A stretch of 50,998 nt of DNA from Deinococcales bacterium (GCA_013298595.1 JAAFIG010000029.1:3102-54099), one strand, 5' to 3'. Shown: positions 1 through 50,998, counted from the stretch's first letter. Made by a program: numbers and translations. The notes: generated from the letters alone by a model not told the origin.

Positions 1-1179
1 ACAGGCTGGCTGAACTTACTTGGTTTAGTAACCGTACTGGGCGCGATCAATGTTGGTACTTTCTTCTTTTTTATTGGTGCTTTTGGCGAAACCCTAAAAC
101 TCCAAGGTGACCTGACCACCCAAATTATTTTCTTGGTCATACTGACTGGTATCCAAGCGGCTGTAAACCACTTTGGAATTCGCCTAACCACAATGCTGAC
201 AGATTTTTCTGGTTATCTGATCTTTGCTGTAGCCATAGCTTTAACCCTTGCACTCATCATTTATGCACCAACTCGAGATTTCTCGAGATTATTTACCTTT
301 ACCAATTACTCGGGTTTTGGAGATCCCGTAGTCTGGCCCAAGACTGATTTAACCACTGTATTCTTACTTGGCTTGCTCTTACCGATTTACACCATTACAG
401 GTTACGATGCTTGCGCCCATGTTTCCGAAGAGACTGTCAATGCGCAACGCAGCGTGCCTCGCAGTATTATCTCGAGTACATTATGGTCTGGGTTATTTGG
501 TTACATCATGCTTTGTGCTTTTGTGATTGCCATTCCTGATATGAACGAAGCTGCCAAAACAGGTTTTGGCGTGTTCTTTTACGTGCTAAATAAAGTCATT
601 CCAAGTGGCTTGCGCGAAATTCTATACGTTGGCGTGTTTGTTTCACAATTTCTTTGTGGACTTGCAACTGTCACCAGTGCCTCGAGAATGATCTTTGCGT
701 TTGCTCGAGATGGTGGTTTCCCAAGTTTCTTAAAAGTGATTGATAAAAACTACCGCACACCCGTTGCGGCAATTTGGACAGCAGGTATCATCAGCATTTT
801 GTTTACGTTGTATGCACCTGTATACACCACCATTGTTACCATTTGCGTGATCTTTTTATTCTTGAGTTATGCCATGCCAATTGCGGCTGGCTATTTAGCA
901 TATGGAAAATCTTGGACAACAATGGGTCCGTGGGATATTGGCACTGCCTTCAAAGCTGTCAGTATCGCTGTTATGCTGGCAATTTGCTTTATTTTTTACA
1001 TTGGTATTCAGCCACCAAACGATAAAGCGCTATGGGTCACACTGGGTTTCTTTGCTTTGCTGGTCGTTGTGTGGTTTGGTCTCGAGCGTAATCGCTTTAC
1101 TGGACCCCCTACTGGCGAAAGTATAGCAGCTCGTCAAGCCGCAATTAAAGATGCCGAGAACGCTCTTTCTAACAAGTAG
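1..1179 (+). CDS. APC-superfamily amino acid/amine permease (5' end outside window)
   Basis: The reading frame is open from base 1, so the start lies upstream and only the C-terminal 392 residues are present. They form a series of about nine or ten hydrophobic segments with a conserved APC-type stretch around LPIYTITGYDACAHVSEET, a typical substrate-site region of amino acid/GABA permeases. The protein would sit in the cytoplasmic membrane and import an amino acid or amine by proton symport (family knowledge). It is followed by a glutamine-synthetase-like ligase gene, which suggests the substrate is an amine that is then gamma-glutamylated (inference). CTCGAG occurs five times. Confidence 0.85.
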   Translation, partial: TGWLNLLGLVTVLGAINVGTFFFFIGAFGETLKLQGDLTTQIIFLVILTGIQAAVNHFGIRLTTMLTDFSGYLIFAVAIALTLALIIYAPTRDFSRLFTFTNYSGFGDPVVWPKTDLTTVFLLGLLLPIYTITGYDACAHVSEETVNAQRSVPRSIISSTLWSGLFGYIMLCAFVIAIPDMNEAAKTGFGVFFYVLNKVIPSGLREILYVGVFVSQFLCGLATVTSASRMIFAFARDGGFPSFLKVIDKNYRTPVAAIWTAGIISILFTLYAPVYTTIVTICVIFLFLSYAMPIAAGYLAYGKSWTTMGPWDIGTAFKAVSIAVMLAICFIFYIGIQPPNDKALWVTLGFFALLVVVWFGLERNRFTGPPTGESIAARQAAIKDAENALSNK

Positions 1180-1186
1180 TTTCGTC

Positions 1187-1217
1187 AAAGACGAAAGCAC
1201 AGTTCGCTTTCGTCTTT
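1187..1217. terminator. Hairpin after the permease gene
   Basis: A perfect 12-bp inverted repeat, AAAGACGAAAGC (1187-1198) and its complement (1206-1217), is separated by a 7-nt loop directly after the permease stop. The right arm ends in CTTT but there is no long T run, so it may be a weak terminator or a processing/stability element between permease and ligase genes. Confidence 0.6.
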
Positions 1218-1237
1218 ATGCTCTCTCGAGGTAAATC

Positions 1238-2569
1238 ATGATCACATTAACTGAATTGCAAGCCCTTGTCTCGAGTGGTGCGATTGACACCGTGGTGATT
1301 GCCTTGACCGATATGCAAGGGCGGTTAATGGGCAAGCATGTAACCGCCAAGTTTTTTCTCGAGGAAGTTATACCTAACGGCGCTGAGGGTTGTAATTATT
1401 TGCTGGCTGTGGATACCGAAATGCGAACCGTGGATGGTTATGCCCTGAGTAGTTGGGGCACAGGTTATGGTGATTTTGTCATGAAACCTGATCTAAAAAC
1501 CCTAAGAATCGCGCCGTGGCTCGAGAAAACTACGTTGGTACAAGTTGATCTTGAGGGGCACGACCATCAGCCTGTGCTGCCTAGCCCTCGGCAAATTCTT
1601 AAAAAGCAACTCGAACGACTCGAGGAACGCGGTTTAGTGGCGTTAGCTGCCACCGAACTCGAATTTATTTTGTTCAAAGATTCTTACGAAGCCGCTTGGA
1701 AAAAGGCTTACCGTGACCTCGAGCCTTTTAATTATTACAATGTAGACTACAGCATTATTGGTACTTCGAGAGCAGAACCTGTGATTGGGCAAATTCGTCG
1801 GCAAATGGAACAAGCTGGTTTGGTGGTAGAAAACTCCAAAGGCGAATGTAATTTTGGTCAACACGAAGTCAATTTTAAGTACAAAGATGCCCTAGCCACC
1901 GCCGATGACCATGTGGTCTACAAAACAGGTGCCAAAGAAATTGCGAGTCGCATGGGGCATTCATTAACTTTTATGGCAAAGTTTAACGAGCGCGAAGGCA
2001 GCAGTTGCCATATCCATTTTTCACTACGGCAACAAGATGGCACACCTATTTTCAAAACGGATCCCTCAAGTTTTGATGCCTTTCTGGCGGGACAATTAGC
2101 TGCCCTGCGCGAATTAACTTTGTTTTATGCGCCAAATATCAACAGTTACAAACGGTATGCCATTGGCAGTTTTGCCCCCACCGCTGTCGCATGGGGACGT
2201 GACAACCGCACTTGCGGTATGCGAGTGGTTGGTTCAGGTAGCTCTTTACGCCTCGAGAACCGCGTACCCGGCGCAGATGTCAACCCATACCTTGCCTTAG
2301 CTGCCATGATCGCTGCTGGGCTACACGGCATGGATAACAAACTAACCCTCGAGCCAGAATTCAAAGGCAACGCGTACCATTCCGATAAGCCTCGAGTGCC
2401 ACGCAACATGCACGTGGCTCGAGAATTGTTTGCCAACTCGAGTTTAGCCAAGGAGGCTTTTGGTGATGTGGTGGTGCAACATTACTTAAATTATGCGGAT
2501 GTGGAACTGGATGCTTATGATGCCGCTGTGACGGACTGGGAACGTTTCAGGGGCTTTGAGCGATTATAA
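1238..2569 (+). CDS. Glutamine-synthetase-family gamma-glutamyl-amine ligase
   Basis: The 443-residue protein has the class glutamine synthetase fold. It shows the beta-Grasp N-terminal part, the metal ligand segment TELEFILF near residue 140, GQHEVNF near 207-213, a variant of the H-loop as GSSCHIHFSL near 254-263, and NRTCGMRVVG near 330. The usual NRSA..RIP of true glutamine synthetases is replaced, and no adenylylation tyrosine segment is evident. This pattern fits the PuuA/GlnA3-type enzymes that join glutamate to polyamines, ethanolamine or other amines using ATP. The position next to an amine-type permease supports catabolism over ammonia assimilation. The precise amine cannot be read from the sequence. 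It overlaps or abuts the next gene (TAA, one base, ATG). Confidence 0.8.
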   Translation: MITLTELQALVSSGAIDTVVIALTDMQGRLMGKHVTAKFFLEEVIPNGAEGCNYLLAVDTEMRTVDGYALSSWGTGYGDFVMKPDLKTLRIAPWLEKTTLVQVDLEGHDHQPVLPSPRQILKKQLERLEERGLVALAATELEFILFKDSYEAAWKKAYRDLEPFNYYNVDYSIIGTSRAEPVIGQIRRQMEQAGLVVENSKGECNFGQHEVNFKYKDALATADDHVVYKTGAKEIASRMGHSLTFMAKFNEREGSSCHIHFSLRQQDGTPIFKTDPSSFDAFLAGQLAALRELTLFYAPNINSYKRYAIGSFAPTAVAWGRDNRTCGMRVVGSGSSLRLENRVPGADVNPYLALAAMIAAGLHGMDNKLTLEPEFKGNAYHSDKPRVPRNMHVARELFANSSLAKEAFGDVVVQHYLNYADVELDAYDAAVTDWERFRGFERL

Positions 2570-2570
2570 A

Positions 2571-3140
2571 ATGATTGAGTTTCCAATTGCCCTCGAAATT
2601 GATTCGGTGTTGCATGACATTGAAACCCAGCGTATTCTGCAAGTTTTTGAAAGCATTGGTGCTGTTGATTTCTTGGTATTATTTCCGTTTCAAAAAATTT
2701 CGTTACTCAAACAGATTATTGTGGCAAATTTCCAAGTGAATGGTCTTTACAATTACCGAACACAGGAATGCGAGATGAGTGTTTCACGTGGCACGCATGA
2801 ATTTGGACAACAGTTTTCGTATCAAAATGTGTACAGTATCAGCTCATTGGCAACAAACGAATTCGCTGCAATTCAACGAACCGCCATTCATGAGCTTGGT
2901 CATCATATTCACAACAGGCTACGAAATACCCAATTGCCTTTTTTCCGTCGTACAATGCAAATTCCTCGGGTGTTTTCAATAAGTCAGTATGCGGCTAAAG
3001 ACAACTTAGAGTATTTTGCTGAGAGCTTTGCTGCTTTTGTTTTCTGCCAAGATCAACTCATGCACCATGATCAAATTGGGTATAACATGATCATCGAAGC
3101 ACTTGGGTTACTCGAGCTTCAAATCAAGGAATTGTTATGA
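2571..3140 (+). CDS. Small HELGH zinc metallopeptidase-like protein
   Basis: This 189-residue protein carries HELGHHIH at about residues 107-114, the zinc-binding HExxH signature, and a downstream acidic helix EYFAESFAAF (about 147-156) that could supply the third ligand, as in gluzincins of the anthrax lethal-factor/Mop kind. There is no signal peptide, so it is probably cytoplasmic. The ATG at 2571 is preferred because it starts one base after the ligase stop; an in-frame TTG at 2556 would add five residues. I do not recognise the family. Its target is unknown. It is translationally coupled to the next small ORF by an ATGA overlap. Confidence 0.65.
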   Translation: MIEFPIALEIDSVLHDIETQRILQVFESIGAVDFLVLFPFQKISLLKQIIVANFQVNGLYNYRTQECEMSVSRGTHEFGQQFSYQNVYSISSLATNEFAAIQRTAIHELGHHIHNRLRNTQLPFFRRTMQIPRVFSISQYAAKDNLEYFAESFAAFVFCQDQLMHHDQIGYNMIIEALGLLELQIKELL

Positions 3141-3343
3141 CTCAACTGGCTGAACGACCACTTGCACAACTCGATGATGCTGAAATCGCCAACGGTTTGG
3201 CAATCCTTTATTTTGAAGATAACTTAACCCGCCAAAACTATGATCGTGCCCTCCAAGAACTCATTCGGCGCAAATTTGCCCCCGAAGCGCTAGGCACCCT
3301 TATTTTATTTGGTGAATTGGAATGGCAAAAGCCATATCGTTAA
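3137..3343 (+). CDS. Small acidic protein of unknown function, coupled to the metallopeptidase
   Basis: A 68-residue soluble protein starts inside the stop region of the metallopeptidase gene (ATGA overlap), a sign of translational coupling. It is rich in charged and hydrophobic helix-forming residues and has no membrane segment or recognisable motif. The tight coupling suggests it acts with the peptidase, for example as an inhibitor or adaptor, but this is inference. The two genes sit within the amine-utilisation locus without an obvious biochemical reason. Confidence 0.55.
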   Translation: MTQLAERPLAQLDDAEIANGLAILYFEDNLTRQNYDRALQELIRRKFAPEALGTLILFGELEWQKPYR

Positions 3344-3432
3344 AGATTTCGTACACTGTACTTTGATTTTTCATTGCAAACTCGAGTTTCAAAAATACCA
3401 ACTCGAGGCATCAATTTTGGAGGAGTTTTTAT

Positions 3433-4206
3433 ATGCGTCTCGAGAATAAAGTGGCTTTAATTACAGGTGCTGGTAGTGGCATCGGCAAAGAATCAGCGTT
3501 GTTGTTTGCGACTGAAGGTGCCAGCGTGGTGGTGGTAGATCTCAACGAAGCGGCTGGTCAAGCAGTTGTCTCGAGTATTGTGGCTGCGGGTGGCAAGGCA
3601 GTTTTTGCCAAAGCCGATGTATCTAAGGCTGCTGATTGCCAGAATATGGTGCAGGTTGCCGAGGATTCGTTTGGTAAGCTAAATGTGATTTTTAATAATG
3701 CAGGTATTTCCCACGCCGACGATGATAACGCAATGAATACCGAGGAAGATGTTTGGGATTTAACCTTTGCGATCAATGTCAAAGGTGTTTTTTTGGGTTG
3801 CAAATACGCGATTCCTGCCATGTTGCGGGCTGGTAGTGGCAGCATTATTAACACAGCTTCGTTTGTGGCGGTGCTAGGCGCGGCTACACCGCAACTGGCG
3901 TATACATCGAGTAAGGGTGCGGTGCTGAGTATGACACGGGAATTAGCTGCCATTCATGCTCGGCAGGGAATTCGGGTGAATGCACTTTGCCCTGGTCCGT
4001 TACGCACTGAATTACTGATGAAGTACTTGGATACCGAGGAGAAACGTCAACGGCGTTTGGTGCACATTCCAATGGGTCGGTTTGGCGAGGCGCAGGAAAT
4101 GGCAAAAGCAGCGTTGTGGTTAGCTTCTGATGACTCGAGTTTTACTACTGGGTCAACATTTTTAGCTGATGGTGGTATTACTTCTGCTTATACAACTCCA
4201 CTTTAG
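3433..4206 (+). CDS. Short-chain dehydrogenase/reductase (SDR), classical type
   Basis: The 257-residue protein has the Rossmann motif TGAGSGIG (residues 11-18), an acidic residue after beta-2 (VVVDLNE) that favours NAD(H), NNAG near residue 90, and the catalytic YTSSK (Tyr-x3-Lys) near 155-159 with an upstream Ser. It would oxidise an alcohol or reduce a ketone; the substrate cannot be assigned. A strong ribosome binding site GGAGGAG lies 6-8 nt before ATG. It is the last gene of the plus-strand cluster and is followed by a CTCGAG-built terminator, so it may serve the same catabolic pathway as the permease and ligase. Confidence 0.85.
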   Translation: MRLENKVALITGAGSGIGKESALLFATEGASVVVVDLNEAAGQAVVSSIVAAGGKAVFAKADVSKAADCQNMVQVAEDSFGKLNVIFNNAGISHADDDNAMNTEEDVWDLTFAINVKGVFLGCKYAIPAMLRAGSGSIINTASFVAVLGAATPQLAYTSSKGAVLSMTRELAAIHARQGIRVNALCPGPLRTELLMKYLDTEEKRQRRLVHIPMGRFGEAQEMAKAALWLASDDSSFTTGSTFLADGGITSAYTTPL

Positions 4207-4214
4207 CATTCTTG

Positions 4215-4239
4215 CCTCGAGTACTGAACTCGAGGTTTT
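4215..4239 (+). terminator. Rho-independent terminator made from two CTCGAG copies
   Basis: CCTCGAGT (4215-4222) and ACTCGAGG (4228-4235) form an 8-bp stem with a 5-nt loop, followed by TTTTATT. It closes the SDR gene and overlaps the end of the convergent GGDEF gene. Confidence 0.75.
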
Positions 4240-5209
4240 ATTGCTTTATAACCTGAAGAAGTTGTGCATGGTGGCTTTGTTTATCTTTGTACATAAAGGT
4301 ATCGGCTTCAAATAATGCAGCATCTAAGTTTTGTTGCTCGAGTTGAATCCAACCTGTGCTAACTTGTGTAAAGTCTGCTCGAATTGTGTTTATCAGGGTC
4401 TCGAGTGCTATTTGATTCGGGTGAATGCTGATAAATTCGTCGCCACCAACTCGGTAAAGTTTATCTGTAGGTTGACAATGTTTTTGTAAAGTTAAGCAAA
4501 ATGCTGTGATAAAAGCATCACCTGCTTGATGTCCTTGGGTATCGTTAATGCGTTTTAATCCGTCTATATCCCATAAGGCAAAGCTGGTGTTGCTTCGTGG
4601 AATCGTTTGCCAGTCTCGCTCGAGGGCACGGCGATTCCCTAAACCTGTGGCTGGGTCAGTCAGGGCGGCTTGCTCGAGTTGTGAGTTAAGGGCTTCTAAA
4701 CGGTCGTGGCGTTGCTCGAGTACGTTGAGTAATTGATGAATTAAGATACCAAAAATGGCAAATAACAGCAGTTGATGCCCAGTGATAATCAGTTGGTGAA
4801 ATGGCAAACCCCAGAAACTCAGTATGATCACTACTAAACCGAGGACGGCACCACCTACACCTCCAAGGACACCTAAAAATAATTCCAGTGGTGACATCAA
4901 AGCGATTCGGCTTGCGGGTTGTAAATCGAGTTGGGTCATGACGCTGCTACTCGAGCCTGTACTGTATACCAGAAATGGAATTAATCCGCAGAGAAATATA
5001 ATTTCACCAATCACAAGGTAGCGTCTCGAGATGATCCAGCCGAGTATTGCCCACAGAATGACCACGAGCATGTCACCAATGCCTACTGTTATCCATCGCT
5101 CTGGTTGCAACCAGGCTGTACCAAATAATGGTGCGGTGAGTACAACACCTCCAGCCAATAATAGCCAGAATACATGCAGAAGTTTTTCTCGCACTGCGCG
5201 TGGGTGCAT
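4238..5209 (-). CDS. Membrane GGDEF-domain diguanylate cyclase
   Basis: The 323-residue protein begins with about five or six hydrophobic segments (residues 12-165) and ends with a GGDEF domain. Visible hallmarks are DPATGLGNRRAL, FALWDIDGLKRIND (metal site Asp) and the intact active loop RVGGDEF. It should make cyclic di-GMP from GTP at the inner membrane face in response to an unknown signal. The domain is a little short after GGDEF. A TACACT box lies 5 nt before the ATG (positions 5215-5220 on this strand), suggesting a leaderless transcript divergent from the next gene. Confidence 0.85.
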   Translation of the reverse strand: MHPRAVREKLLHVFWLLLAGGVVLTAPLFGTAWLQPERWITVGIGDMLVVILWAILGWIISRRYLVIGEIIFLCGLIPFLVYSTGSSSSVMTQLDLQPASRIALMSPLELFLGVLGGVGGAVLGLVVIILSFWGLPFHQLIITGHQLLLFAIFGILIHQLLNVLEQRHDRLEALNSQLEQAALTDPATGLGNRRALERDWQTIPRSNTSFALWDIDGLKRINDTQGHQAGDAFITAFCLTLQKHCQPTDKLYRVGGDEFISIHPNQIALETLINTIRADFTQVSTGWIQLEQQNLDAALFEADTFMYKDKQSHHAQLLQVIKQ

Positions 5210-5284
5210 AGTTTAGTGTACACAGAAAATGCTTATGGTTGTGGCATTTTTTGGCATTTGGTCAAACGCCTTCGTGAGTTTTTA

Positions 5285-5290
5285 TAGACT
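5285..5290 (+). promoter_or_regulatory. -10 box TAGACT, leaderless type
   Basis: TAGACT ends 7 nt before the ATG at 5298. This decides the start in favour of 5298 over the longer in-frame ATG at 5229. No clear -35 was found. Confidence 0.5.
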
Positions 5291-5919: not shown

Positions 5920-6558
5920 ATGAAAATTTCTTCAAAGTGGTTCTTAGGTACGCTGCTACTGGCTGGCGTGGCAGTCTCGAGTGTTTTGGCACAAGGCGCT
6001 AAACTCTATGTTCCAGCAGGTTTTAAGGTCGAACCTGATTTATCTAAAACTCGAGTGGTCAGTTTTAAGGGACCTAAGTATGTACTAGCGGATAACACTG
6101 ATTACCGCGCTGTGATCGAAACTGATAAGGGTCGTATTGTGGTGGATTTATTTGAAGACGATACCCCTGTTACAGTCAATAATTTTGTTTTCTTGGCGCG
6201 TAATAAGTTCTACGATGGTATTATTTTCCACCGTATCATTGACCAATTTATGGCGCAAACAGGCGATCCACTGGGTACTGGTACAGGTGGACCTGGGTAT
6301 CAATTTGGCGATGAATTCCGTACCAAACTGACTTTTAAAGAAAAGGGGCTTTTAGCCATGGCAAATTCTGGTCCTGCCACCAATGGTAGCCAATTCTTTA
6401 TTACCTTAGTTCCAACCGAGCATTTGAATGGCAAACACACAATTTTTGGTAAGCTGCTCGAGGGTGAAAAAGTGTTGAACGCCTTAAATAAGGGTGAGCC
6501 ACCTGCAAATCCTTCAAAGATGGTCAAAGTGTATATCGTTTCTAAAAAGAAAAAGTAA
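5920..6558 (+). CDS. Secreted cyclophilin-type peptidyl-prolyl isomerase
   Basis: The 212-residue precursor has an N-terminal signal peptide ([20 protein letters not shown], cleavage near VLAQ). A cyclophilin domain of about 150 residues follows, with the catalytic/binding elements [33 protein letters not shown] and [11 protein letters not shown]. It would speed proline isomerisation of proteins folding outside the cytoplasmic membrane. The start at 5920 is chosen over the longer open frame because it gives a proper signal peptide and has a -10 box 7 nt upstream. The gene ends in a strong terminator and looks monocistronic. Confidence 0.9.
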
Positions 6559-8979: not shown

Positions 8980-10101
8980 ATGAAAAAACCGTTGGCACTT
9001 AGCGCGGTTGCCGTTATGCTCGCATTCGGCATCACATCGGCACAACAACCTATTCGTATTGGTATGGCATTCGACGCAGGTGGTAAGAACGATAAGAGCT
9101 TTAACCAAAGCGCTTATGAAGGCGCTCAACGCGCTGCTAAAAAGTTTGGTGTCGAAGTTAAAGATTTCGAGCCAACCGATCCTAGCCAAGTTGGTACTGG
9201 TATCCGTCAATTTGCCGAAGCTGGTTTTGATTTGGTCATTGGTGTTGGTTTTGCCAATCAACCAAGCATTACCAAAACAGCTGCCGAGTTCAAAGATGTT
9301 AAATTTGCTGTCATTGATGACGTACCAACTGGTGATAACACCACTGGCGCAGTTTTCCGTGAACACGAAGGCAGCTTCTTAGTCGGTTACATTGCTGGTA
9401 AAACCAGCAGCACAGGTGTGATTGGCTTTGTTGGTGGTATGCAAATTCCACTCATCCGTAAGTTCTACGCTGGCTTTAATGCTGGTGTTAAAGCCGCTTG
9501 CCCAACTTGCACCACCATCGAGAATTACACTGGTACAACCCCAGAAGCTTGGAACAACCCAACCAAAGCTCGAGAAATCGCAGCTGCCCAAGGTGCTAAA
9601 GGAGCAGATATTATTTACGCTGCTGCTGGTGCTTCAGGTGCTGGTGCTTTGAAATATATCACGGATACCAAGTGCATTAGTGGTACCAAAACCCCAGCTA
9701 TGATTAAACTCAAACCAATGCTTGCAACCATCAAAGCTGTAGCTAAGCCAAAGGATTACACTGCTAAGTGCAAAGGCGCAAATGACCGCCCAATGTTCTT
9801 TATTGGTGTAGATGCTAACCAAAACTACCTTGGCGATTCTGATAAGAACCCAAAGACCATGAATTACGTGCTGACCAGCATGTTAAAGCGTGTGGATTTG
9901 GCTGTTTACAACCTAATTGGCGGAGTTAAACAAGGCAAGCCTTGGGTTAAAGGTGCACAAGAATTTGGTTTAGATAACAGCGGTGTAGGTTACGCACTGG
10001 ATCAATACAACGAAGCCCTTATTTCTGCTGATACCATCAAAGGTGTCGAATCTGCCAAAGCCAAGATCATCAATGGCGATCTTGACGTAGCTGACAAATA
10101 A
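8980..10101 (+). CDS. BMP-family (PnrA/Med type) solute-binding protein of an ABC importer
   Basis: The 373-residue protein has a signal peptide (KKPLALSAVAVMLAFGITSA) and a BMP/basic membrane protein domain. Landmarks are IGMAFDAGGKNDKSFNQSAY, then FDLVIGVGF and GFVGGMQIPLIRKFYAGF. Members bind purine nucleosides outside the membrane and feed an ABC transporter. There is no lipobox cysteine in the leader, so it may be periplasmic. The ABC ATPase and permeases are not next to it. A strong ribosome site AGGAGG lies 8 nt before ATG. It holds only one CTCGAG and prefers a narrow codon set (GGT, AAC, ACC), suggesting high expression. Confidence 0.88.
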   Translation: MKKPLALSAVAVMLAFGITSAQQPIRIGMAFDAGGKNDKSFNQSAYEGAQRAAKKFGVEVKDFEPTDPSQVGTGIRQFAEAGFDLVIGVGFANQPSITKTAAEFKDVKFAVIDDVPTGDNTTGAVFREHEGSFLVGYIAGKTSSTGVIGFVGGMQIPLIRKFYAGFNAGVKAACPTCTTIENYTGTTPEAWNNPTKAREIAAAQGAKGADIIYAAAGASGAGALKYITDTKCISGTKTPAMIKLKPMLATIKAVAKPKDYTAKCKGANDRPMFFIGVDANQNYLGDSDKNPKTMNYVLTSMLKRVDLAVYNLIGGVKQGKPWVKGAQEFGLDNSGVGYALDQYNEALISADTIKGVESAKAKIINGDLDVADK

Positions 10102-12621: not shown

Positions 12622-13323
12622 TTACCCCCAATAGAATGTGAGGTCTTCATTATCCGAAAAAAAATTCGAGTCTAACTTCTGACACTTCTTTTTTTCTGCA
12701 ACTAATTCCTTTTCAAATCTATTGAGAAATTCAATATCTGCAACGTGTTTATTGAAAAACCATCGTTCTGAATAATAGTGTTTCAAAATAAGTAGGACAA
12801 AAGCGTGCGGTGTAAAAATACGTCTGACAGCCCATCTATTACTCGAGTGAAACCCTATGTGCAGATGTGAGCAAGGATGATAAAACTGAGAGTATTCTCT
12901 AGGTGAATTTTCATATCTGATCATTGGAATCGTATAATTTGATTTCAACTCACCCATTTTCTGAGTGAATTCATCTTCTGAAATAGCATTTGCATCCCTA
13001 TATTCATGGAATTCTGCTGCTTTAATACATTTATCAAGTTGACCACCAATATGAGGGTTAGGAAAAAAAACATATCTCAGTTGATTATTTTTATCATAGT
13101 TAAATTGAAAATAAGAGTAATCAATCAACATAAAGTTATATACTGACAGTCGTATTCCTGTATAATATACGTCTAGGTATGTTGATTCTGGCGAAAGACA
13201 AACATCTCGGAATTCTTTATTAATTCTTACCGACGTTGGATTGCTAAAAGTTGATTCTAATTCGAGTTGACAAATTGATCTCCAAGAAGCAGTAATACTC
13301 GCGCAAAAATCAGATTCAGTCAT
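12622..13323 (-). CDS. DUF2290-type protein paired with a helicase
   Basis: The 233-residue protein is soluble and matches what I recall of DUF2290: a central YHPCSHLHIG block, then RRIFTPHAFVLLILKHYYSERW. The HxHLHIG-like cluster could bind metal, but no function is established. It starts at the base after the helicase stop (TAA directly followed by ATG), so the two are one operon. It is AT-rich and has a single CTCGAG, unlike its surroundings, which points to acquisition from elsewhere. Helicase/DUF2290 pairs are, as I recall, listed as candidate phage-defence genes; I cannot check this here. Confidence 0.65.
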   Translation of the reverse strand: MTESDFCASITASWRSICQLELESTFSNPTSVRINKEFRDVCLSPESTYLDVYYTGIRLSVYNFMLIDYSYFQFNYDKNNQLRYVFFPNPHIGGQLDKCIKAAEFHEYRDANAISEDEFTQKMGELKSNYTIPMIRYENSPREYSQFYHPCSHLHIGFHSSNRWAVRRIFTPHAFVLLILKHYYSERWFFNKHVADIEFLNRFEKELVAEKKKCQKLDSNFFSDNEDLTFYWG

Positions 13324-15441
13324 TTAGTCCTCAGAAATTATTGATTCAAGAAAGTCGTCTTCACTTAAACCCATTTTCCTAGCTTTTGCTTTATATTCTT
13401 CGAGCAGTTTTTTTGCCCTACTAGCTTTATTACTTAAATCTCGTTGAATCAAATCTATATTGCTCAAGTCTGGCATAACAAATTTAAGCATTGGAAAATT
13501 ATCTCTTGCCAAATCAATCTCGGTACACACGAGTCGTGCACCTTTTCCAATACCACTTACACGTAACCATGCTTTTGTGCGAGTAAATGCAGTAAATAGC
13601 TTATTTCTACCAGATCGAGTTGGTAGGTAAATAGCATTTATCCCCATTGCAAAAACAACAGATGCCTCATTTCCTTTCGCTCGATAGACGGTTGAAAGTG
13701 TAACCATATTTGGCATAATGAATGGGGGTTCGTTATATGGATCCGCAGTTATGTTATTTGTAGAAACACCCTGAATTGCCAGTTCTTCAGAAATTTTAGA
13801 AAAATTCCTCCTTGCATTTCGATCATCAAGTGAAATAATTAGCATATCCTCTGGTTGCAGACCACCATTTATAAATTCCTTCACTTCATTCACAATCCAG
13901 TTCACTTCATTATCAAGTGAATCAGAAATAAAGGTTTTGACTATATTTGCTTTCTGAATTGCATTAAAACTCAATGGACTATTCTCCGCTGGACGAAGAA
14001 TTTCTACTATTGTACCAACTGAAAGTTCTCCTTCAGACTGTACTTCATATCCAACATCTTGCCAATGTTCCCTACTTTCCAAAAGTTGTACTATCTCATC
14101 GCTATAAATTCCAAAACCGAGAGCGTGTGCAATAACTAGCACTTCCGCTTGATTTCTGTAACATTTACTCAACACCGTGTCATTAATTGTACCAAAAGAT
14201 AATTTCCCCTCAGCTCTTTCCAAAGAAATTCGAGGCTCATTATTGCCATCCATACCAAATAATTCTTCTGGTGAACGCATTTTTACATTTAAAATATTTT
14301 GCAATTCATCATATGCCCACACAATATTTTTTTCATCACGTGTTCCTTTTGCAAGGGCAAAACATAATTCATAAAACCCGCTTGGGAAATCTTGACCCTC
14401 ATCAATCAATACGTGATCATAAAAACATGGAACTGATGCTTGTTTAAGTAATTGACGGCAAACATAATCAAATGGGTCTGTTGCTTCTCGAGCCTCATCA
14501 AATGAAATGGGTTTTACACCTAATCTCTTACAAGTATCTGAATAAGTTCCTGGAATGTTATTTCCACCCCATCCATGTCTCACATGTATGCGATTCCAAT
14601 CAGGGTCTTCTTCTTTATAATTTCGATAAAATCTTGTTATTAAATTTGTCAATAGATTTCGTAAATTGCGGGTAAAAAATGTAACCAAGATCAAATCATC
14701 TGGATTTGAAAGATGCAGATATGCAGCTTTCATAGCTAAAATTACTGTCTTCCCAGACCCTGCTAATCCACGAATTCTCTGCGGACCCGTTGTATTTACT
14801 AATGCAGCGCGACGCTGTTTTTGATCAAAGTTTGCAATTTCACTTTCAAGTTGGGCAATTGTTACACCGAAATGCTGTTCTTCTGTATTACTGATAATAC
14901 GGCGCTGCGGTCTTGTTAAAGCTTTCGCGCCTTCTAATACTGACCTAATTTCGGTAATTATATCATCATTTAAATCCAAACTGCTTTCAGCTAACGAAGT
15001 CTTAAAACCATCAAATGATTTAATAAAAATACTATTAACTAAATCATATTCTTCGCTTATATTTCCTAATATTATTGGAATAACTGGAAATTTCAGAGTA
15101 GATAAACTACTTTTTAATAAGCGACTTTTAAGTAATCTACCAATAAATATACTACAAAACTGACCTAAAGATTCGTCAATTTCATCAATCCAATCATATT
15201 TTTGCAAATTTTTATTTTCTGAGTATAATCGAACTGCAAAAACCCCATGATTCTTTGAAATTATCAGCACATCTGGTTTATGAGCGACTGTTTCGTAATC
15301 CGAATATGCTGGAAAATCATAATAAACAATAGCATTTTGCAAATTCGCGTTTTGCTCATGATCTTTTAGATACTCTATAAAATCTCGAGCAACTGGGTCT
15401 TGGGTAATTCGGCTAGTAGTTATAAGGATATCCAGTGCCAT
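13324..15441 (-). CDS. UvrD-like SF1 helicase with a degenerate NERD-like N-terminal domain
   Basis: The 705-residue protein has an N-terminal domain (about 1-160) shaped like NERD/PD-(D/E)xK nucleases: KPDVLIISKNHGVFAVRLY. The ExK of the active site is absent (VRL). The helicase part follows: Q motif FDQKQ (205-209), Walker A GLAGSGKT (225-232), Walker B LIDEGQD (345-351), YRAKGNEASVVFA as motif V and TAFTRTKAWLRVSG as motif VI. It should bind and unwind or translocate on DNA using ATP. RBS GGAG sits 5 nt before ATG. Only two CTCGAG copies in 2.1 kb and AT-rich codons mark it as foreign to this genome. Confidence 0.8.
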   Translation of the reverse strand: MALDILITTSRITQDPVARDFIEYLKDHEQNANLQNAIVYYDFPAYSDYETVAHKPDVLIISKNHGVFAVRLYSENKNLQKYDWIDEIDESLGQFCSIFIGRLLKSRLLKSSLSTLKFPVIPIILGNISEEYDLVNSIFIKSFDGFKTSLAESSLDLNDDIITEIRSVLEGAKALTRPQRRIISNTEEQHFGVTIAQLESEIANFDQKQRRAALVNTTGPQRIRGLAGSGKTVILAMKAAYLHLSNPDDLILVTFFTRNLRNLLTNLITRFYRNYKEEDPDWNRIHVRHGWGGNNIPGTYSDTCKRLGVKPISFDEAREATDPFDYVCRQLLKQASVPCFYDHVLIDEGQDFPSGFYELCFALAKGTRDEKNIVWAYDELQNILNVKMRSPEELFGMDGNNEPRISLERAEGKLSFGTINDTVLSKCYRNQAEVLVIAHALGFGIYSDEIVQLLESREHWQDVGYEVQSEGELSVGTIVEILRPAENSPLSFNAIQKANIVKTFISDSLDNEVNWIVNEVKEFINGGLQPEDMLIISLDDRNARRNFSKISEELAIQGVSTNNITADPYNEPPFIMPNMVTLSTVYRAKGNEASVVFAMGINAIYLPTRSGRNKLFTAFTRTKAWLRVSGIGKGARLVCTEIDLARDNFPMLKFVMPDLSNIDLIQRDLSNKASRAKKLLEEYKAKARKMGLSEDDFLESIISED

Positions 15442-45212: not shown

Positions 45213-46349
45213 ATGACCAGTCTGACTTTACCTCTACCAGAAACAAAACCTCGAGCTAAATCGCAATGGCGGGTTATCTGGGAACAATTCCAGAAACAAC
45301 CACCAGCTATTGTGGCGTTATTTGTCTTATTGGCACTGTATATTGCAGCCATCTTTGCACCAATGCTCGCCCCTTATGAGCGCAACGAAACAGCTCCTGT
45401 AACCGAGGGAGTTCGTTACCAAGCACCAACCCAAGTTCGTTTCGTAGACCCCGAAACAGGAGCCTTAGAACGCCCCTTTGTTTACGCCACCACTCGACGT
45501 GTAGACCCAAATACTTTTGAATTACAATTTCTCGAGGATCGGTCGGTCAAGTATTATGTGCAATTTTTTGCACAGCGTGGCGAGCCATACCAATTATTTG
45601 GTTTTATTCCAATGCGTCTGCGCTTATTTTCGGTCAGTGCACCTGCCAGAATTTTTATCATGGGCAGCGATGGTTCTGGACGCGATATTTTCTCGAGAAT
45701 AATTTATGGCGCACAAGTCAGTTTAATGATTGGTTTTGTGGCGGTTGGTATTAGTTTTCTGATCGGTGCCATCCTTGGTGGGTTGGCAGGGTTTTATGGT
45801 GGATTACTCGATGCTTTGCTGATGCGTTTTACCGAAGTGATTCAAGCTATCCCACCGTTTTTTCTATTGATTGCATTATCGGCTTTAATCCCCAGTTTTC
45901 TCGAGCCAGAACAGTACTTTTATGGTGTGATTATCATGCTTGGTTTAACCAGTTGGATGGATTTAGCGAAATCTATTCGTGGACAAGTGCTATCTATCCG
46001 CGAACAAGAGTTTATTGTTTCAGCTCGAGCTTTAGGCATTGGTGATGGTCGGATTATTTTGCGGCATATTTTGCCAAACACGGCTAGTTACTTAGTAATA
46101 CTGGGTTCGATTACCATTCCTGGTGCCATTCTTGCCGAAAGCGGGTTATCCTTTATTGGACGTGGTATTCGTGAGCCTTCTGTCAGTTGGGGTTCGTTAT
46201 TATCTGATATTACAACCAATGGAATTGCTGGTGTCAATCTGCATCCTTGGGCATTGATGCCAGGCTGGTACATCCTTGTTACCATTGTTGCTTGGAATAT
46301 CCTTGGTGATGGTCTACGTGCGGCTTTTGACCCTAAGAAACGTCGGTGA
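45213..46349 (+). CDS. Oligopeptide/dipeptide ABC permease, DppC/OppC type
   Basis: The 378-residue protein has the first helix at about 33-53, then an extended region of some 95 residues before helix 2 (GSDGSGRDIFSRIIYGAQ at its end), and five more helices. The EAA loop is EFIVSARALGIGDGRIILRH. It is longer than usual DppC (about 300) because of the external insert, a trait shared by some thermophile and Deinococcus permeases as I recall. It pairs with the preceding gene. Confidence 0.9.
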   Translation: MTSLTLPLPETKPRAKSQWRVIWEQFQKQPPAIVALFVLLALYIAAIFAPMLAPYERNETAPVTEGVRYQAPTQVRFVDPETGALERPFVYATTRRVDPNTFELQFLEDRSVKYYVQFFAQRGEPYQLFGFIPMRLRLFSVSAPARIFIMGSDGSGRDIFSRIIYGAQVSLMIGFVAVGISFLIGAILGGLAGFYGGLLDALLMRFTEVIQAIPPFFLLIALSALIPSFLEPEQYFYGVIIMLGLTSWMDLAKSIRGQVLSIREQEFIVSARALGIGDGRIILRHILPNTASYLVILGSITIPGAILAESGLSFIGRGIREPSVSWGSLLSDITTNGIAGVNLHPWALMPGWYILVTIVAWNILGDGLRAAFDPKKRR

Positions 46350-46364
46350 GCATCAGGAGGTTTT

Positions 46365-46889
46365 ATGAAAAAAGTGGTGATTATTCTTATTACAACCCTC
46401 ATCTCGAGTGCCCTTGCCAGCACGCTGACAATACAATTTCGTAGTGTCGCTCGAGTGGTTGATACCATTGAAAAAAATGGGAAATTACTATCCGAAGCGG
46501 GCGAGCTTGGTTTTGGTTTTGGTATTGGTATGACTGTGCAGGGCGATAAAATCAAATTTTACTTAGGTAAAAAAGCCCAAGTGGTGGTTGACAGCACCCA
46601 AAGTGGCAATCTTGGTTGGCAATATGTTGATGCTTTAGCAGTTGCTAAAGGTCTTGGTTATACGGCTAAACTTGAAAAAGTTACCGATAAAAACGGGTCT
46701 CGAGATGTATTAAATATCAATTATCCGCAAAAAATTACTTGTGAGGATTTTACATATTGGGAAGATGCACAAAAATTTTATAATGCCAGCAGCAACTGGC
46801 GTTCCGAAAAATTTGATGAACAAGACCCATATAATATTGATCGCAGTAAAGATAAACTGGCTTGCGAAAACTTACCTCGAACTCGGTAA
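46365..46889 (+). CDS. Secreted protein with stalk-like region and degenerate Excalibur domain
   Basis: The 174-residue precursor has a signal peptide (KKVVIILITTLISSALA). A middle part resembles copper-amine-oxidase N-terminal/stalk domains (YVDALAVAKGLGYTAKLEK). The C-terminus follows the Excalibur pattern C..F...AQ.FY...DPYNIDRSKDKLACE. The calcium loop normally reads DxDxDG; here it is DRSKDK, so calcium binding may be lost. AGGAGG lies 4-5 nt before ATG. It follows the permease pair by 15 nt and could share its mRNA. Confidence 0.65.
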   Translation: MKKVVIILITTLISSALASTLTIQFRSVARVVDTIEKNGKLLSEAGELGFGFGIGMTVQGDKIKFYLGKKAQVVVDSTQSGNLGWQYVDALAVAKGLGYTAKLEKVTDKNGSRDVLNINYPQKITCEDFTYWEDAQKFYNASSNWRSEKFDEQDPYNIDRSKDKLACENLPRTR

Positions 46890-46936
46890 AACGACACGGG
46901 AACTTTTTAGCGATAAAACAACTCTGATGAAATAGC

Positions 46937-46965
46937 GAACAGCAGGTTGAAACCTCGAGCTGTTC
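46937..46965 (+). terminator. Possible terminator hairpin
   Basis: GAACAGC (46937-46943) pairs with GCTGTTC (46959-46965), with an inner AGGT/ACCT pairing, followed by ACAATTTTAG. The T run is weak. Confidence 0.45.
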
Positions 46966-47035
46966 ACAATTTTAGAACAGCACAACTGTGCTGGTACTGG
47001 TTTTGTATTTCTATGCAAAACCAAAAGGAGTTTTT

Positions 47036-48247
47036 ATGCGTTCATGGGTTTTTCTAGCATTCGCCGCTGTTTCCTTGGTTGGTTGTAATACCGCTGCACC
47101 CAGTATCCCTGCAACATTAACCATCAATGCTGTCAGTGGCAATAATCAAATAGCTGCCAGTGGTTCTGCCGTTGGTACGCCACTGGTTATCCAAGTGGTT
47201 TCCTCGAGTGGTGCTGCCAGTGGTGTTTCAGTTGCCGCTTTTACTGACACCCGTTATTGCAGTATCAGCCCTGCAACCGCCAGCACCGATACAAATGGCA
47301 ATGCCTCGTTCACAGTCACTGCTCTGGCGATCACAGGTGTTACCTGCAACAGCAACTTGACAATTGTTGGACAAACAGTTTCTCGAGGAACGATTGCATT
47401 CAATACGTTTATACGTCCAGCTCAGCGAAATTTAAGTTTAGTCAGCACCTTAGCTTTACCAACAGCCACTGCCACAGTCACCGATGCGGGAGCAGCCACT
47501 GGCAGTGTCAACATCAGTGCTGCCAGTAATTTACCAACCCCAGACAGCAACCATACGTATGGTATTTATATGGCTCGCCAAGATATCAATGGTAACATCA
47601 GCAACGTTAGCTTACTGGGTAAAAGCTCGAGTTTTCCTTTACCAGCAGCCCTTGCTGCCCCAACAAATTTAGCCACTAATGGCAACAATGTACTAGCCAT
47701 TGTTTTGCAAGCCATTGGCGCAGGTCGTGTCAACGATTTGAACAATGCCACTTTAGTCACTGCATTCACTCCAGTTGCCGCAGGCACTGCCAATGTTGCC
47801 ATGACTTTATCTGCCGAAGGATTGCGTTTACCAACGGCTTATACTGTCTCGAGTGCCTCAGCTCAAGTCACCCTGACCAATCCGAACATTAATTTAGGCG
47901 TGGCAGGCGATGGTATTTCGGTTGCTTGGACTGGTTTACCTGTTAATCCAAGTGGCTGGGTCTATGTACTCAACACCACCGATGCTGCCAGTGTCAGCAC
48001 TCGAGTTGCTACTTTTAACAGCAATGGACGTAATGGAACAAGCAACTTCAATGCACAAGCACCAAGCAACAGCACTATTCCAAGCAGTATTGTCGATGCC
48101 AAAGATAAATTTAGCCGAGTTTTTGTCACCCTCGAGCCACTTTCAGCAGGCGATGGTGGTTTTGCCAGCAGCACAACAGGTGCAACTGTGGTCTTAGATA
48201 ATGCCACAAGCCTATGGACTTTGAGCACAAATAACACACAACAATAA
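47036..48247 (+). CDS. Lipoprotein with bacterial Ig-like (Big-1-like) domain
   Basis: The protein has 403 residues with a lipoprotein signal RSWVFLAFAAVSLVGC (lipobox LVGC, lipidated Cys at about residue 17). A Big-1-like domain (about 25-125) with a typical TDTNGNASFTVTA strand follows, then Ser/Thr/Asn-rich beta repeats to the end. It should be anchored to the outer face of a membrane and may mediate surface contacts. AAAGGAG precedes the ATG at 47036, which is preferred over 46988. It is closed by a long palindromic terminator. Confidence 0.75.
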   Translation: MRSWVFLAFAAVSLVGCNTAAPSIPATLTINAVSGNNQIAASGSAVGTPLVIQVVSSSGAASGVSVAAFTDTRYCSISPATASTDTNGNASFTVTALAITGVTCNSNLTIVGQTVSRGTIAFNTFIRPAQRNLSLVSTLALPTATATVTDAGAATGSVNISAASNLPTPDSNHTYGIYMARQDINGNISNVSLLGKSSSFPLPAALAAPTNLATNGNNVLAIVLQAIGAGRVNDLNNATLVTAFTPVAAGTANVAMTLSAEGLRLPTAYTVSSASAQVTLTNPNINLGVAGDGISVAWTGLPVNPSGWVYVLNTTDAASVSTRVATFNSNGRNGTSNFNAQAPSNSTIPSSIVDAKDKFSRVFVTLEPLSAGDGGFASSTTGATVVLDNATSLWTLSTNNTQQ

Positions 48248-48260
48248 CCGTACAAGTTCA

Positions 48261-48294
48261 CTCGAGCACCTTAATTAAGGTGCTCGAGGTTTTT
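48261..48294 (+). terminator. Palindromic terminator beginning and ending in CTCGAG
   Basis: Positions 48261-48288 form a perfect 28-bp palindrome whose ends are CTCGAG and whose centre is TTAATTAA. TTTTT follows at 48290-48294. Confidence 0.85.
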
Positions 48295-48545
48295 ATTTGC
48301 CTAAAACCTTAATACTTTTAGTGAGAAACCAATCAACAAAAAGCTTTGCCAATTTTTATGAGGAGCATCGGTGCTTGCGTGGCGCAAATTTACGAATGTG
48401 TGTCTAATGTTGCGTTTTTCATGCAATACTTACAAAAAAACAACTTGGGAACTTTCTTTAAAAAGTGTCACTCTAAAAATCGAGGACAGCCGAAAGTCTC
48501 GAGTCTGCCTTTTTGTATAACGCTGTAAAGGAGTCATTTTATTCA
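48295..48545. other. Intergenic region without a supported gene
   Basis: About 250 bp of AT-rich DNA. It contains a 60-codon frame (48346-48528, TTG start, no ribosome site) that I do not accept. TATAAC near 48516 and AAAGGAG near 48527 could be the -10 and ribosome site for the small ORF that follows. No convincing RNA structure was seen. Confidence 0.4.
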
Positions 48546-48662
48546 ATGATGGTCTTAGGTATCCGTTGGTACTTAGCGACTGCTAAATACCCTGACACTG
48601 ACTTCTTGAGCAAAGCAACAACAACCTACATTTTCAAGAAGCACAAAGGAGAACCAACATGA
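48546..48662 (+). CDS. Small ORF of 38 codons coupled to a secreted-protein gene
   Basis: ATGATG at 48546 opens a 38-residue frame ending in TGA at 48660-48662, overlapping the ATG of the next gene (ATGA). It begins MMVLGIRWYLATAKYPDTDF and ends with a Lys-rich tail. AAAGGAG lies 12 nt upstream, a little far. It could be a real microprotein or a leader peptide that controls the next gene by translational coupling. Confidence 0.4.
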   Translation: MMVLGIRWYLATAKYPDTDFLSKATTTYIFKKHKGEPT

Positions 48663-49090
48663 AAAATGTCAAGTTAATCGCCCTTGGAATGATCGCCGCT
48701 CTTGGTATGAGTGCTGCAACTATCGCAGCCCCAAGTTATATCGCTGATTGGGAAAATACAGCTGTGGTTAATATTTTCTCGAGTGCCGAAAGCACTGTAC
48801 AGATCAATTCCAGTAGCTTGCTCGATGTGAACCAATTGATTCTTGTGCAATATGGTTTTGAAAACCTCAAAGATATGCTTCGCATCAAGGAAGTGATCGT
48901 TTCCGAGGCAATTGGCATTACTGCAAAAAAATATAGCCTAGAGGCAGATGACAACGGCAACCCAGAACTCAGCCTGACTTTTACCCTAAAAAGTAACACG
49001 GCATATGGCACATATCCCGCAATTATTGTGCTCGAGAATACGCAAACTGGTCAAACCACAAACATTGGTATTACCATCAGCGTACAATAA
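48659..49090 (+). CDS. Small secreted beta-rich protein of unknown function
   Basis: The 143-residue precursor has a signal peptide (KNVKLIALGMIAALGMSAAT, cleavage near IAAPSYI) and a compact mature domain of about 118 residues with alternating beta strands and no Cys. AAAGGAG lies about 8 nt before ATG. I do not recognise the family; the fold could be immunoglobulin-like. It ends three bases before the convergent plsC gene. Confidence 0.65.
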   Translation: MKNVKLIALGMIAALGMSAATIAAPSYIADWENTAVVNIFSSAESTVQINSSSLLDVNQLILVQYGFENLKDMLRIKEVIVSEAIGITAKKYSLEADDNGNPELSLTFTLKSNTAYGTYPAIIVLENTQTGQTTNIGITISVQ

Positions 49091-49093
49091 AAT

Positions 49094-49672
49094 TTACTTC
49101 TCGAGGGCGTGCATTGCGTCCTCGAGTTGTTTGTTGTGCTCCTCGAGTGTACCTGTGGGCAGAATGGGTTGACCATAGCGAAAAACAAAACGTTTACCAC
49201 CAAACCAATTGCGCTCGAGATGAATACCTACAGGAATAACTGGCACTTTGGCTTTTAAAGCAATTAACGAAGTGCCACCTTTGACTTCTTGCCCACCTCG
49301 AGTACCTTGTGGGAAAATAACCAGTAACTGCCCGTTTTGTAATAGCCGTAAAGCTGTTTTAATCGCTTGTAAATCGGTTTTATGCCGATCCACAGGAAAA
49401 GAATTGCCCGCTAACATATACCAGCGCAAAGGATTTTTTTCAAAAGATTCTTTTTTTGCCATGTAATGCACTCGGCGTTTTGTTGGTTGTGCCGCACCAA
49501 ATGGGTCTATGGCAGTAATATGATTTGGTGCCAGTATAGCTGCGCCACTTTTTGGTAAATACTCAGTACCAAGGTACTGCACACCAATAAAACGAAAATA
49601 CCAACCCCAAATACCTTTAATCGCATCAAACGCCACTGGGTTATTGGAAAAATCAGGATTTTTATCGTTCAC
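49094..49672 (-). CDS. plsC: 1-acyl-glycerol-3-phosphate acyltransferase family
   Basis: The 192-residue protein has the acyltransferase motif I NHITAIDPF (NHxxxxD), motif II-like NSFPVDRHKTD, motif III FPQGTRGGQEV and the late VPVIPVGIHLER. It acylates lysophosphatidic acid to phosphatidic acid at the membrane. Its start overlaps the end of cmk by 4 nt, so the two are co-translated, a pairing seen in other bacteria. Confidence 0.88.
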   Translation of the reverse strand: MNDKNPDFSNNPVAFDAIKGIWGWYFRFIGVQYLGTEYLPKSGAAILAPNHITAIDPFGAAQPTKRRVHYMAKKESFEKNPLRWYMLAGNSFPVDRHKTDLQAIKTALRLLQNGQLLVIFPQGTRGGQEVKGGTSLIALKAKVPVIPVGIHLERNWFGGKRFVFRYGQPILPTGTLEEHNKQLEDAMHALEK

Positions 49673-50331
49673 AAAACACCCCCTAATTTGCCACGAATCA
49701 ACTCAAGGGCATGCTGCACTGTTTGCTCAAGGTTTAAATTGCTGGAATCAATATGAATTGCATCTTTGGCTGGTTGGGTGTTAATGGCATCCATTGCATC
49801 TCGAGCTTCGATACTTTTTTGCACTTCTTCCAAAGAACGGCTGCGCTCCGCCACGCGACGCAATGCCCGAACTTGGCTACTGGCAGTTAAAAACAGTTTA
49901 ACCGCTGCATCAGGAAAAACCACTGCCCCCATATCACGCCCTTCGGCAATAAAAGGCGGCTCGAGCAAACGAATTTGTGTATTCACCCAAGCCCGAACTT
50001 GTGGGTGTTGTGCCACAACACTCACTGCTAAGTCAACTCGAGTCGAATGACAAAGCGCTGTAACATCTATGCCATCCAGCCAAACAAGATTACTTGGTAC
50101 TCGAGCCTCGAAACACAATTCATGGGTGCGAATAACAGCCAGCACCGCAGCTTCAAGTTTCACATCAGTACTTGCTTCAAGCGCCGCCAAAGCCACCAAG
50201 CGGTACAACAATCCACTCGAGATATACGGAATAGCCAACGCACTGGCAATACCTTTGGCAACACTGGACTTACCACTGGCAGCTAACCCATCTAAGGTAA
50301 TGACACAAGATTTTGGCAAAGAAAATATCAC
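49669..50331 (-). CDS. cmk: Cytidylate kinase
   Basis: The 220-residue protein has the P-loop ITLDGLAASGKSSVAKGIA, the Cmk-specific early segment YISSGLLYRLVALAAL, AEGRDMGAVVFPDAAVKLFL and the lid RRVAERSRSLEEVQKSIEARD. It phosphorylates CMP/dCMP with ATP. The start is GTG, with TATACT ending 6 nt upstream, so it is leaderless. Confidence 0.93.
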   Translation of the reverse strand: MIFSLPKSCVITLDGLAASGKSSVAKGIASALAIPYISSGLLYRLVALAALEASTDVKLEAAVLAVIRTHELCFEARVPSNLVWLDGIDVTALCHSTRVDLAVSVVAQHPQVRAWVNTQIRLLEPPFIAEGRDMGAVVFPDAAVKLFLTASSQVRALRRVAERSRSLEEVQKSIEARDAMDAINTQPAKDAIHIDSSNLNLEQTVQHALELIRGKLGGVL

Positions 50332-50337
50332 TGCTCG

Positions 50338-50343
50338 AGTATA
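50338..50343 (-). promoter_or_regulatory. cmk -10 box fused to a CTCGAG
   Basis: Minus strand TATACT, whose last two bases start a CTCGAG, 6 nt before the GTG at 50331. Anything bound to or modifying CTCGAG here would touch the promoter. Confidence 0.55.
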
Positions 50344-50352
50344 CGGTATGGG

Positions 50353-50772
50353 TCAAGTGTTATTCGTTGTTGGCGCAACTGGAGTGGCAGGTTTTGGAGC
50401 TGCTTTAAAAGCTTTATACCGCTCGATTTCTGGTTTGGCAAATTGCAAAGCAAAATGCAGCACAGCAATATCATCAGCAAGTCCAAAAGCACCAAGGAAA
50501 CGCTCTGGCAACAAATCAAACGGACTGACCAAATATGCCAATGCGCCAATGACGGCGTATTTCACTTCGGGTTTCATGTCAAAAGACGCATCAAAACCCA
50601 TCTGGTAAATGGTTTGCACATCCTGCCAAGAGTCACCTAGTTTATCTTTGACAGCAACAAAAGCCGTACCAAAACCAGCTTCGATAGCTTTTAAGGTATC
50701 AGGGCTTTCGGCTTTAGCTTTGGCTTCGGGGCTAGAAAGCATCGCGGAAATCGTATCTTGGTTCGGGGTCAT
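50353..50772 (-). CDS. DUF1232 (YkvA-like) small membrane-associated protein
   Basis: The 139-residue protein has the DUF1232 signature YAVIGALAYLVSPFDLLPE with the following GLADD, and an Ala/Pro-rich end. The family is linked to membranes, without a proven role. The ATG at 50772 is set by TAAACT exactly 7 nt upstream; the longer frame to 50976 runs through a repeat and is rejected. Confidence 0.78.
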   Translation of the reverse strand: MTPNQDTISAMLSSPEAKAKAESPDTLKAIEAGFGTAFVAVKDKLGDSWQDVQTIYQMGFDASFDMKPEVKYAVIGALAYLVSPFDLLPERFLGAFGLADDIAVLHFALQFAKPEIERYKAFKAAPKPATPVAPTTNNT

Positions 50773-50779
50773 ACGATAT

Positions 50780-50785
50780 AGTTTA
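50780..50785 (-). promoter_or_regulatory. -10 box TAAACT, leaderless
   Basis: TAAACT on the minus strand ends 7 nt before the ATG at 50772. Confidence 0.55.
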
Positions 50786-50866
50786 GCACTCGAGCAAGCC
50801 TCGAGGTAACACGCCTTTGCTACAAAGCTGCATGTTGCGGTGGTATTACAAACTGTATTTTGCCGT

Positions 50867-50890
50867 AGAGGCGAGGCATGCCTCGCCCCT
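50867..50890. repeat. Palindrome of the GAGGCGAGGCATG family
   Basis: A 24-bp palindrome with one mismatch, centred on GCATGC. Its half matches the outer arms of the inverted repeat at 30231-30287. On the minus strand it lies just after the stop of the partial gene at the window edge. Confidence 0.8.
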
Positions 50891-50906
50891 TGTATATTAA
50901 AAGAGG

Positions 50907-50998
50907 TTAGAAATGATGTGGCAGATCGTTCGCCGCTAGAACCCAATGAGTTCGTCCTGTAGCAGGATCGCCACAACCAAAAACCTTGAGAAAAGCTC
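50907..50998 (-). CDS. C-terminal end of an unidentified gene (start outside window)
   Basis: On the minus strand one frame is open from the window edge to TAA at 50909-50907, giving 29 residues that end in GRTHWVLAANDLPHHF. The phrase WVLAANDLP is reminiscent of the WxLxTNLP strand in DDE transposases, where it would lie mid-protein, so a truncated transposase is one possibility. Too short to be sure it is coding. Confidence 0.3.
   Translation of the reverse strand, partial: AFLKVFGCGDPATGRTHWVLAANDLPHHF

Follow-up and report, generated by a model that had tools for sequence, protein, structure and literature searches.

Highly iterated palindromes (HIPs) are known from cyanobacteria, where most of them occur at 500-2,500 copies per Mb and where the prototype HIP1 (GCGATCGC) is replaced in some strains by alternate HIPs, namely GGCGCC in Calothrix PCC 7103, rCCGGy in Oscillatoria PCC 10802 and GCsGC in Cyanothece PCC 7822 (PMC4390886). 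The hexamer CTCGAG is the target of a solitary methyltransferase of Nocardia, reported for clusters of this motif near the replication origin (PMC4752239). Why cyanobacteria carry HIP1 has been an open question for decades. With CTCGAG, a second phylum has a genuine highly iterated palindrome, one that extends through a whole order; the case is apparently independent and several times denser.

The window, i.e., the whole stretch of 50,998 nucleotides analysed here (Deinococcales bacterium, GCA_013298595.1 JAAFIG010000029.1:3102-54099), contains one exact CTCGAG every 182 bp on average. The expectation for the window is 9.4 copies from base composition and 3.6 from a motif-masked order-2 Markov model; the value of about 12 put forward in a first-pass annotation, made from the sequence alone, is right for equal base frequencies (12.5). 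Most TCGA tetramers of the window (278 of 408) sit inside CTCGAG. The following features were delineated:

1..50998, no strand: CTCGAG sites over the whole window, 278 copies (exact positions and background models)
272-277, 282-287, 471-476, 681-686, 704-709: first CTCGAG sites (exact positions)
272..2442, no strand: dense first stretch, 17 CTCGAG in 2.2 kb
8980..10101, strand +: second motif-poor gene, substrate-binding lipoprotein-like (named from sequence), 1 CTCGAG in 1.1 kb
12622..15441, strand -: motif-poor island, 3 CTCGAG (sites 12842, 14487 and 15384) vs about 17 expected
12622-13323, strand -: DUF2290 gene (family match)
13324-15441, strand -: UvrD-like helicase gene (family match)
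50789-50794, 50800-50805: last CTCGAG sites (exact positions)

Counting confirmed the 17 copies previously noticed in the first 2.5 kb, where permease-like and glutamine synthetase-like genes underlie the dense stretch (names from translations alone). The similar density previously claimed for most of the window agrees with the 278 copies, apart from one clear hole at about 12.8-15.4 kb. The island at 12622..15441 is probably acquired DNA that the motif has yet to colonise, and its UvrD-like helicase gene has one of the lowest CTCGAG densities in the genome sample. Probably acquired genes have a low CTCGAG density, and the gene at 8980..10101 shows that vertical-looking genes can be CTCGAG-poor too.

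The density is not limited to the contig of the window. The whole genome (G000; 4.58 Mb in 68 contigs, with a G+C content of about 45% in the sample) contains 27,159 copies, i.e., about 5.9 per kb (5,930 per Mb) or roughly one per 170 bases, which corresponds to a 31-fold excess over base composition and, in a 484-kb sample, to an excess of about 73-fold over an order-2 Markov model. The first-pass reading of CTCGAG as a highly iterated palindrome, in a Deinococcota-like lineage, is supported, and the observation had even been understated. Among 33 sample stretches, each 15 kb or longer, density ranges from 2.9 to 8.0 per kb; along genes it is flat. Concerning the spacing of the sites, a helical periodicity was rejected, only the 3-base codon period being strong. 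Sites less than about 20 bp apart are underrepresented in all four genomes of the window family (G000-G003); this avoidance is absent from the intergenic DNA of G000 and G002, so a steric footprint was discarded as its cause and we attribute it to coding constraint.

CTCGAG stands alone in this genome since most other hexamer palindromes are avoided (pooled observed/expected ratio, O/E, of 0.47). For this reason the reversed motif GAGCTC, with 15 copies genome-wide, was an unfair baseline and was dropped as a control in favour of Markov and codon models. Among tetramer palindromes, GGCC (O/E 0.01) and CCGG (O/E 0.09) are avoided in G000. GGCC occurs 3 times in the window against 149 expected (O/E 0.01-0.02 in the window and in the G000, G001 and G003 samples), and in the same sequences CCGG is rare and many further palindromes are avoided too; the near-absence of GGCC and the rarity of CCGG are as under long-standing restriction. 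The enrichment of CTCGAG is the reverse of the avoidance expected in a host for a type II restriction target, and no gene of the XhoI family (PF04555) was found in G000-G003. The iterated sequence is also distinct from HIP1 proper, with 2 copies of CGATCG in the window against 9 expected.

Codon usage, given the Leu-Glu pairs present, predicts 122 in-frame CTC-GAG in 484 kb of G000, where 1,405 are found, and the other two frames contain 577 copies vs 37 expected and 422 vs 11. Outside called genes the density is 5.5 per kb, against 5.9 overall. CTCGAG is thus iterated in coding and non-coding DNA beyond codon use, in every frame and between genes as first described, and the codon-pair explanation is refuted for G000 and its family. 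As a high-GC codon baseline we used the matches listed by a motif scan of all genomes and of viruses for clustered CTCGAG, which are mostly high-GC sequences and are unusable for estimating prevalence. In the haloarchaea among them, CTCGAG is somewhat high out of frame as well: haloarchaeal loci L201, L206, L235, L248, L249, L251 and L257, a biased sample since the motif scan chose them, carry 3.7 CTCGAG per kb, with 10 vs 1.0 and 9 vs 2.3 (codon expectation) out of frame.

Comparison of G000 with its congener G001 (72% identity in alignments) shows that the motif is maintained at the DNA level. CTCGAG is kept in 64% of cases, vs 19% for all hexamers, and ranks first of 314 hexamers for conservation. 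Where Leu-Glu pairs align, those written CTCGAG have the same six bases in 74% of cases and those with other codings in 5%, in line with the earlier proposal that some process maintains the hexamer. Turnover is nevertheless substantial, 36-41% of the sites being unshared between the two genomes. Only sites facing an ungapped hexamer in the other genome entered this count; that hexamer is often one or two changes away, so the unshared sites arose by substitution. As a group, the one-step neighbours of CTCGAG are not depleted, and most of the transition neighbours are mildly enriched, a pattern that suggests selection or drive plus ongoing decay, and not strong conversion of neighbours. A Vsr-like correction of CTTGAG was rejected, this hexamer not being depleted in three of the four family genomes. 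The DNA motif also shapes the proteome: in each of the four family genomes Leu-Glu tops the list of over-represented dipeptides, at 2.2-2.6 times expectation, vs 0.93-1.04 for Glu-Leu, and the two are about equal in G004, which has no CTCGAG excess. The pressure on CTCGAG is strong enough to alter proteins.

CTCGAG was counted in 111 genomes of the phylum set. The density is about 6 per kb in the window family, 6-8 in genus g11, 3.6 in G008, 1.4-3.4 in Meiothermus-like genera, 1.6-2.3 in genus g23 and lower in others, with about 0.8 in the Thermus-like genus g7 and about 0.3 in G004, G041 and G052. An excess over codon expectation, in and out of frame, is present in Meiothermus-like samples, G070 and G062, weak and near the high-GC baseline in Truepera- and Marinithermus-like samples, and absent in G004, several relatives being represented by samples of 6-60 kb. 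The named plasmids of Allomeiothermus, Meiothermus and Oceanithermus are 5-7.5-fold enriched. In contrast to these sister lineages, Deinococcus strongly avoids the motif in the two plasmids examined (O/E 0.08-0.16; 2 copies in 40 kb of L480 and 1 in 40 kb of L481). Within this sampling, the trait thus does not extend beyond the Thermus side of the phylum. In the favoured explanation, CTCGAG is a highly iterated palindrome of the order, in Thermaceae, in Truepera-like and Marinithermus-like families and in two further ones. Flanking bases vary by lineage: CCTCGAGG accounts for 84 of the 183 CTCGAG sites in the G008 sample and is depleted in the window family (52 vs 149 in G000 and 0 vs 41 in G002).

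Genus g10 provides a natural experiment in the erosion of an iterated palindrome. Its three genomes with an intact XhoI restriction gene (G018, G042 and G048) have the fewest CTCGAG of the genus, 0.7-1.0 per kb vs 1.7-2.0 in those without the gene. In these three genomes (loci L445, L446 and L447), the XhoI-type restriction gene adjoins a beta-class methyltransferase gene.

In Thermus, CTCGAG is exempt from an avoidance of TCGA. The megaplasmids of T. thermophilus HB8 and HB27 and of T. brockianus (named records) show an O/E of 0.06-0.18 for TCGA and of 1.75-2.66 for CTCGAG; with codon usage modelled, CTC-GAG reaches 52-78% of expectation, vs 3-11% for the other in-frame NTC-GAN pairs. Almost every remaining TCGA lies within CTCGAG at the Thermus loci L476, L483, L484 and L150. 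Leu-Glu exceeds Glu-Leu by about two to one in the megaplasmid proteins, as in the window family. Among phages (loci L478, L487 and L485 were compared), the temperate ones share the host pattern and the two lytic ones do not. The Thermus phage P23-45, known to be lytic, avoids TCGA without the CTCGAG exemption (11% for other NTC-GAN pairs and 9% for CTC-GAG, relative to expectation), and the CTCGAG excess is absent from the lytic phage phiFa. Riverbug, whose genes include an integrase and a regulator resembling LexA, follows its host (1% and 47% of expectation, respectively), and the Mu-like Meiothermus phage MMP17 carries 2.6 CTCGAG per kb, like its hosts.

Across 21 sampled genomes, a stronger CTCGAG excess goes with a stronger avoidance of other palindromes (rho -0.83; rho -0.75 with one genome per genus, n=14). 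G+C content is confounded with both variables and the species are not independent, so this correlation is no more than a lead, towards a possible link between CTCGAG and exposure to heavy type II restriction.

We favour, with a probability of roughly 55%, the explanation that selection or drive keeps the signal, through a putative host factor able to recognise CTCGAG in resident DNA. In its favour are the genome-wide copies in all frames and between genes, the conservation at Leu-Glu pairs, the Leu-Glu excess in proteins, the undrained neighbours, the graded enrichment over the order, the patterns of Thermus and of the phages, the low counts in XhoI-bearing genomes of genus g10 and the result that no methyltransferase of five Pfam classes is common to the four family genomes. 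Point mutation would create new copies anywhere in the chromosome, in genes and intergenic DNA alike, and those read by the factor in double-stranded resident DNA would gain an advantage and be retained; the scaled selection or drive would have to be roughly ln(73), about 4, per site. As a guess, the factor could serve break repair, mismatch repair or recombination, where it would read a mark of resident DNA. We infer selection or drive, not directed conversion, as the cause, and a single ancestral factor may act in all genera, which the differences in flanking preference between lineages make less certain. Against this explanation, site turnover is faster than a constant pressure of about 4 would give, the mild enrichment of transition neighbours fits decay as well as partial function, and the Truepera- and Marinithermus-like samples are only weakly enriched. 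A more detailed version can be offered tentatively. In the Thermus-Meiothermus lineage, CTCGAG would mark resident DNA across the whole order and be read by a factor other than a methyltransferase; the mark would double the Leu-Glu of proteins, withstand TCGA restriction in T. thermophilus and be picked up by chromosome-resident phages, though not by lytic ones.

Second in rank, and rather unlikely in our estimate, comes a methylation-based HIP, in which a CTCGAG methyltransferase would steer mismatch repair or mark the DNA and sites would accumulate. Every HIP-bearing cyanobacterial genome has a methyltransferase able to modify its HIP (PMC4390886). If an extra adenine methylation were protective, it would also account for CTCGAG escaping the avoidance of TCGA in Thermus. 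G000 does encode candidate DNA methyltransferases in five Pfam classes (METHYLTRANSFERASES), but each of them lacks an orthologue in at least one of G001, G002 and G003 (search of these five classes in genomes that are 91-94% complete). Two of the G000 genes carry 0 and 1 CTCGAG against 7-8 expected and, being motif-poor, look recently arrived. Resident-looking methyltransferases also exist, of D12 type in G002 and G003 and of m5C type in G000, G001 and G012, where the m5C gene (contig 15) has a near-normal CTCGAG density. This m5C gene is missing from G002 and G003, which are equally CTCGAG-rich, and was rejected as the driver because it fails on G002, G003 and G070; a signature of m5C deamination was looked for and was not seen.

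The first-pass annotation had proposed a solitary methyltransferase with XhoI-like specificity. In G009 (L448:5829-8014), the gene for an intact 583-aa methyltransferase adjoins an XhoI restriction gene that stop codons interrupt. Relatives of this enzyme occur at about 50% identity in some Meiothermus-like genomes, which favours methylation, and at only 27% in G002, but the most enriched Meiothermus-like genome, G075, has no XhoI-type methyltransferase, and the direct search detected no homologue (E<=1e-10) in G000, G001, G003, G008, G012 and G016. With neither an XhoI-type homologue in G000 nor an enzyme of the five classes shared by the family, the proposal is left without its enzyme; it is kept alive by classes beyond the five, by the incompleteness of the genomes and by unassigned specificities, and the enzyme could belong to such a further class or have been replaced by different enzymes across lineages. 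On contig 34 of G000 (L041:1399-3245), a beta-class methyltransferase gene is directly followed by a gene for a 275-aa protein, NotI-like endonuclease by sequence reading and with no NCBIfam match; the pair adjoins a gene read as S-adenosylmethionine synthase.

A bias of mutation or repair alone, in which replication, repair or conversion would favour CTCGAG over its neighbours with no benefit to the cell, is improbable. Consistent with such a bias, density is uniform within and between genes as well as along them, and the resident-type phage MMP17 is enriched, but a 73-fold excess produced by conversion should have drained the one-step neighbours. Still less probable is a DNA uptake signal, by which CTCGAG would promote the uptake of kin DNA during natural transformation and spread by drive. 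Thermus is naturally competent and the excess is missing from lytic phages; against this, the motif has six bases only, shares no flanking consensus and is far denser than known uptake signals, and we know of no CTCGAG-type uptake specificity in Thermus. Lastly, a mere artefact of codon pairs or composition, with Leu-Glu spelled CTC GAG, may contribute part of the count in high-GC relatives, the in-frame pair being 1.3-2.4-fold over expectation in the unrelated high-GC genomes among the motif-scan matches, but is practically dismissed for G000 by the excess of 11.5-fold in frame and of 16- and 39-fold out of frame and by the full intergenic density.

Selection or drive by a putative CTCGAG reader remains our preferred reading. 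The strength of the signal is graded, with natural losses (G004, G041 and G052) and an eroded state in genomes with an XhoI restriction gene, and it is retained, in weaker form, in HB8 and HB27, two strains of T. thermophilus with standard genetic tools; the cause of iterated palindromes therefore becomes directly testable.

We found no report of CTCGAG over-representation in the Deinococcota group in a search of 5.39 million open-access articles, in agreement with the first-pass annotation, which knew of no described case. The closest system is HIP1, likewise a palindrome extremely over-represented across genes and intergenic DNA in the vertically inherited DNA of a lineage. HIP1 differs in its sequence, its length (8 bases instead of 6) and its phylum, and in having a matching methyltransferase, for which the five Pfam classes and the XhoI-type search gave no counterpart here. 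At 5,930 per Mb in G000, CTCGAG is more than twice as dense as most HIPs (about 500-2,500). The Nocardia methyltransferase shares the target hexamer, but the clusters near the origin contrast with an even density here, and the searches found no enzyme of this kind. Chi sites and DNA uptake sequences are also short over-represented motifs that mark self DNA; those known differ in being asymmetric or longer, in their lower density and in a much weaker over-representation. Alternate HIPs resemble CTCGAG in being short palindromes in genomes that avoid related palindromes; they replace HIP1 and are confined to single strains, whereas CTCGAG is iterated in several genera and families and extends as far as Thermus.
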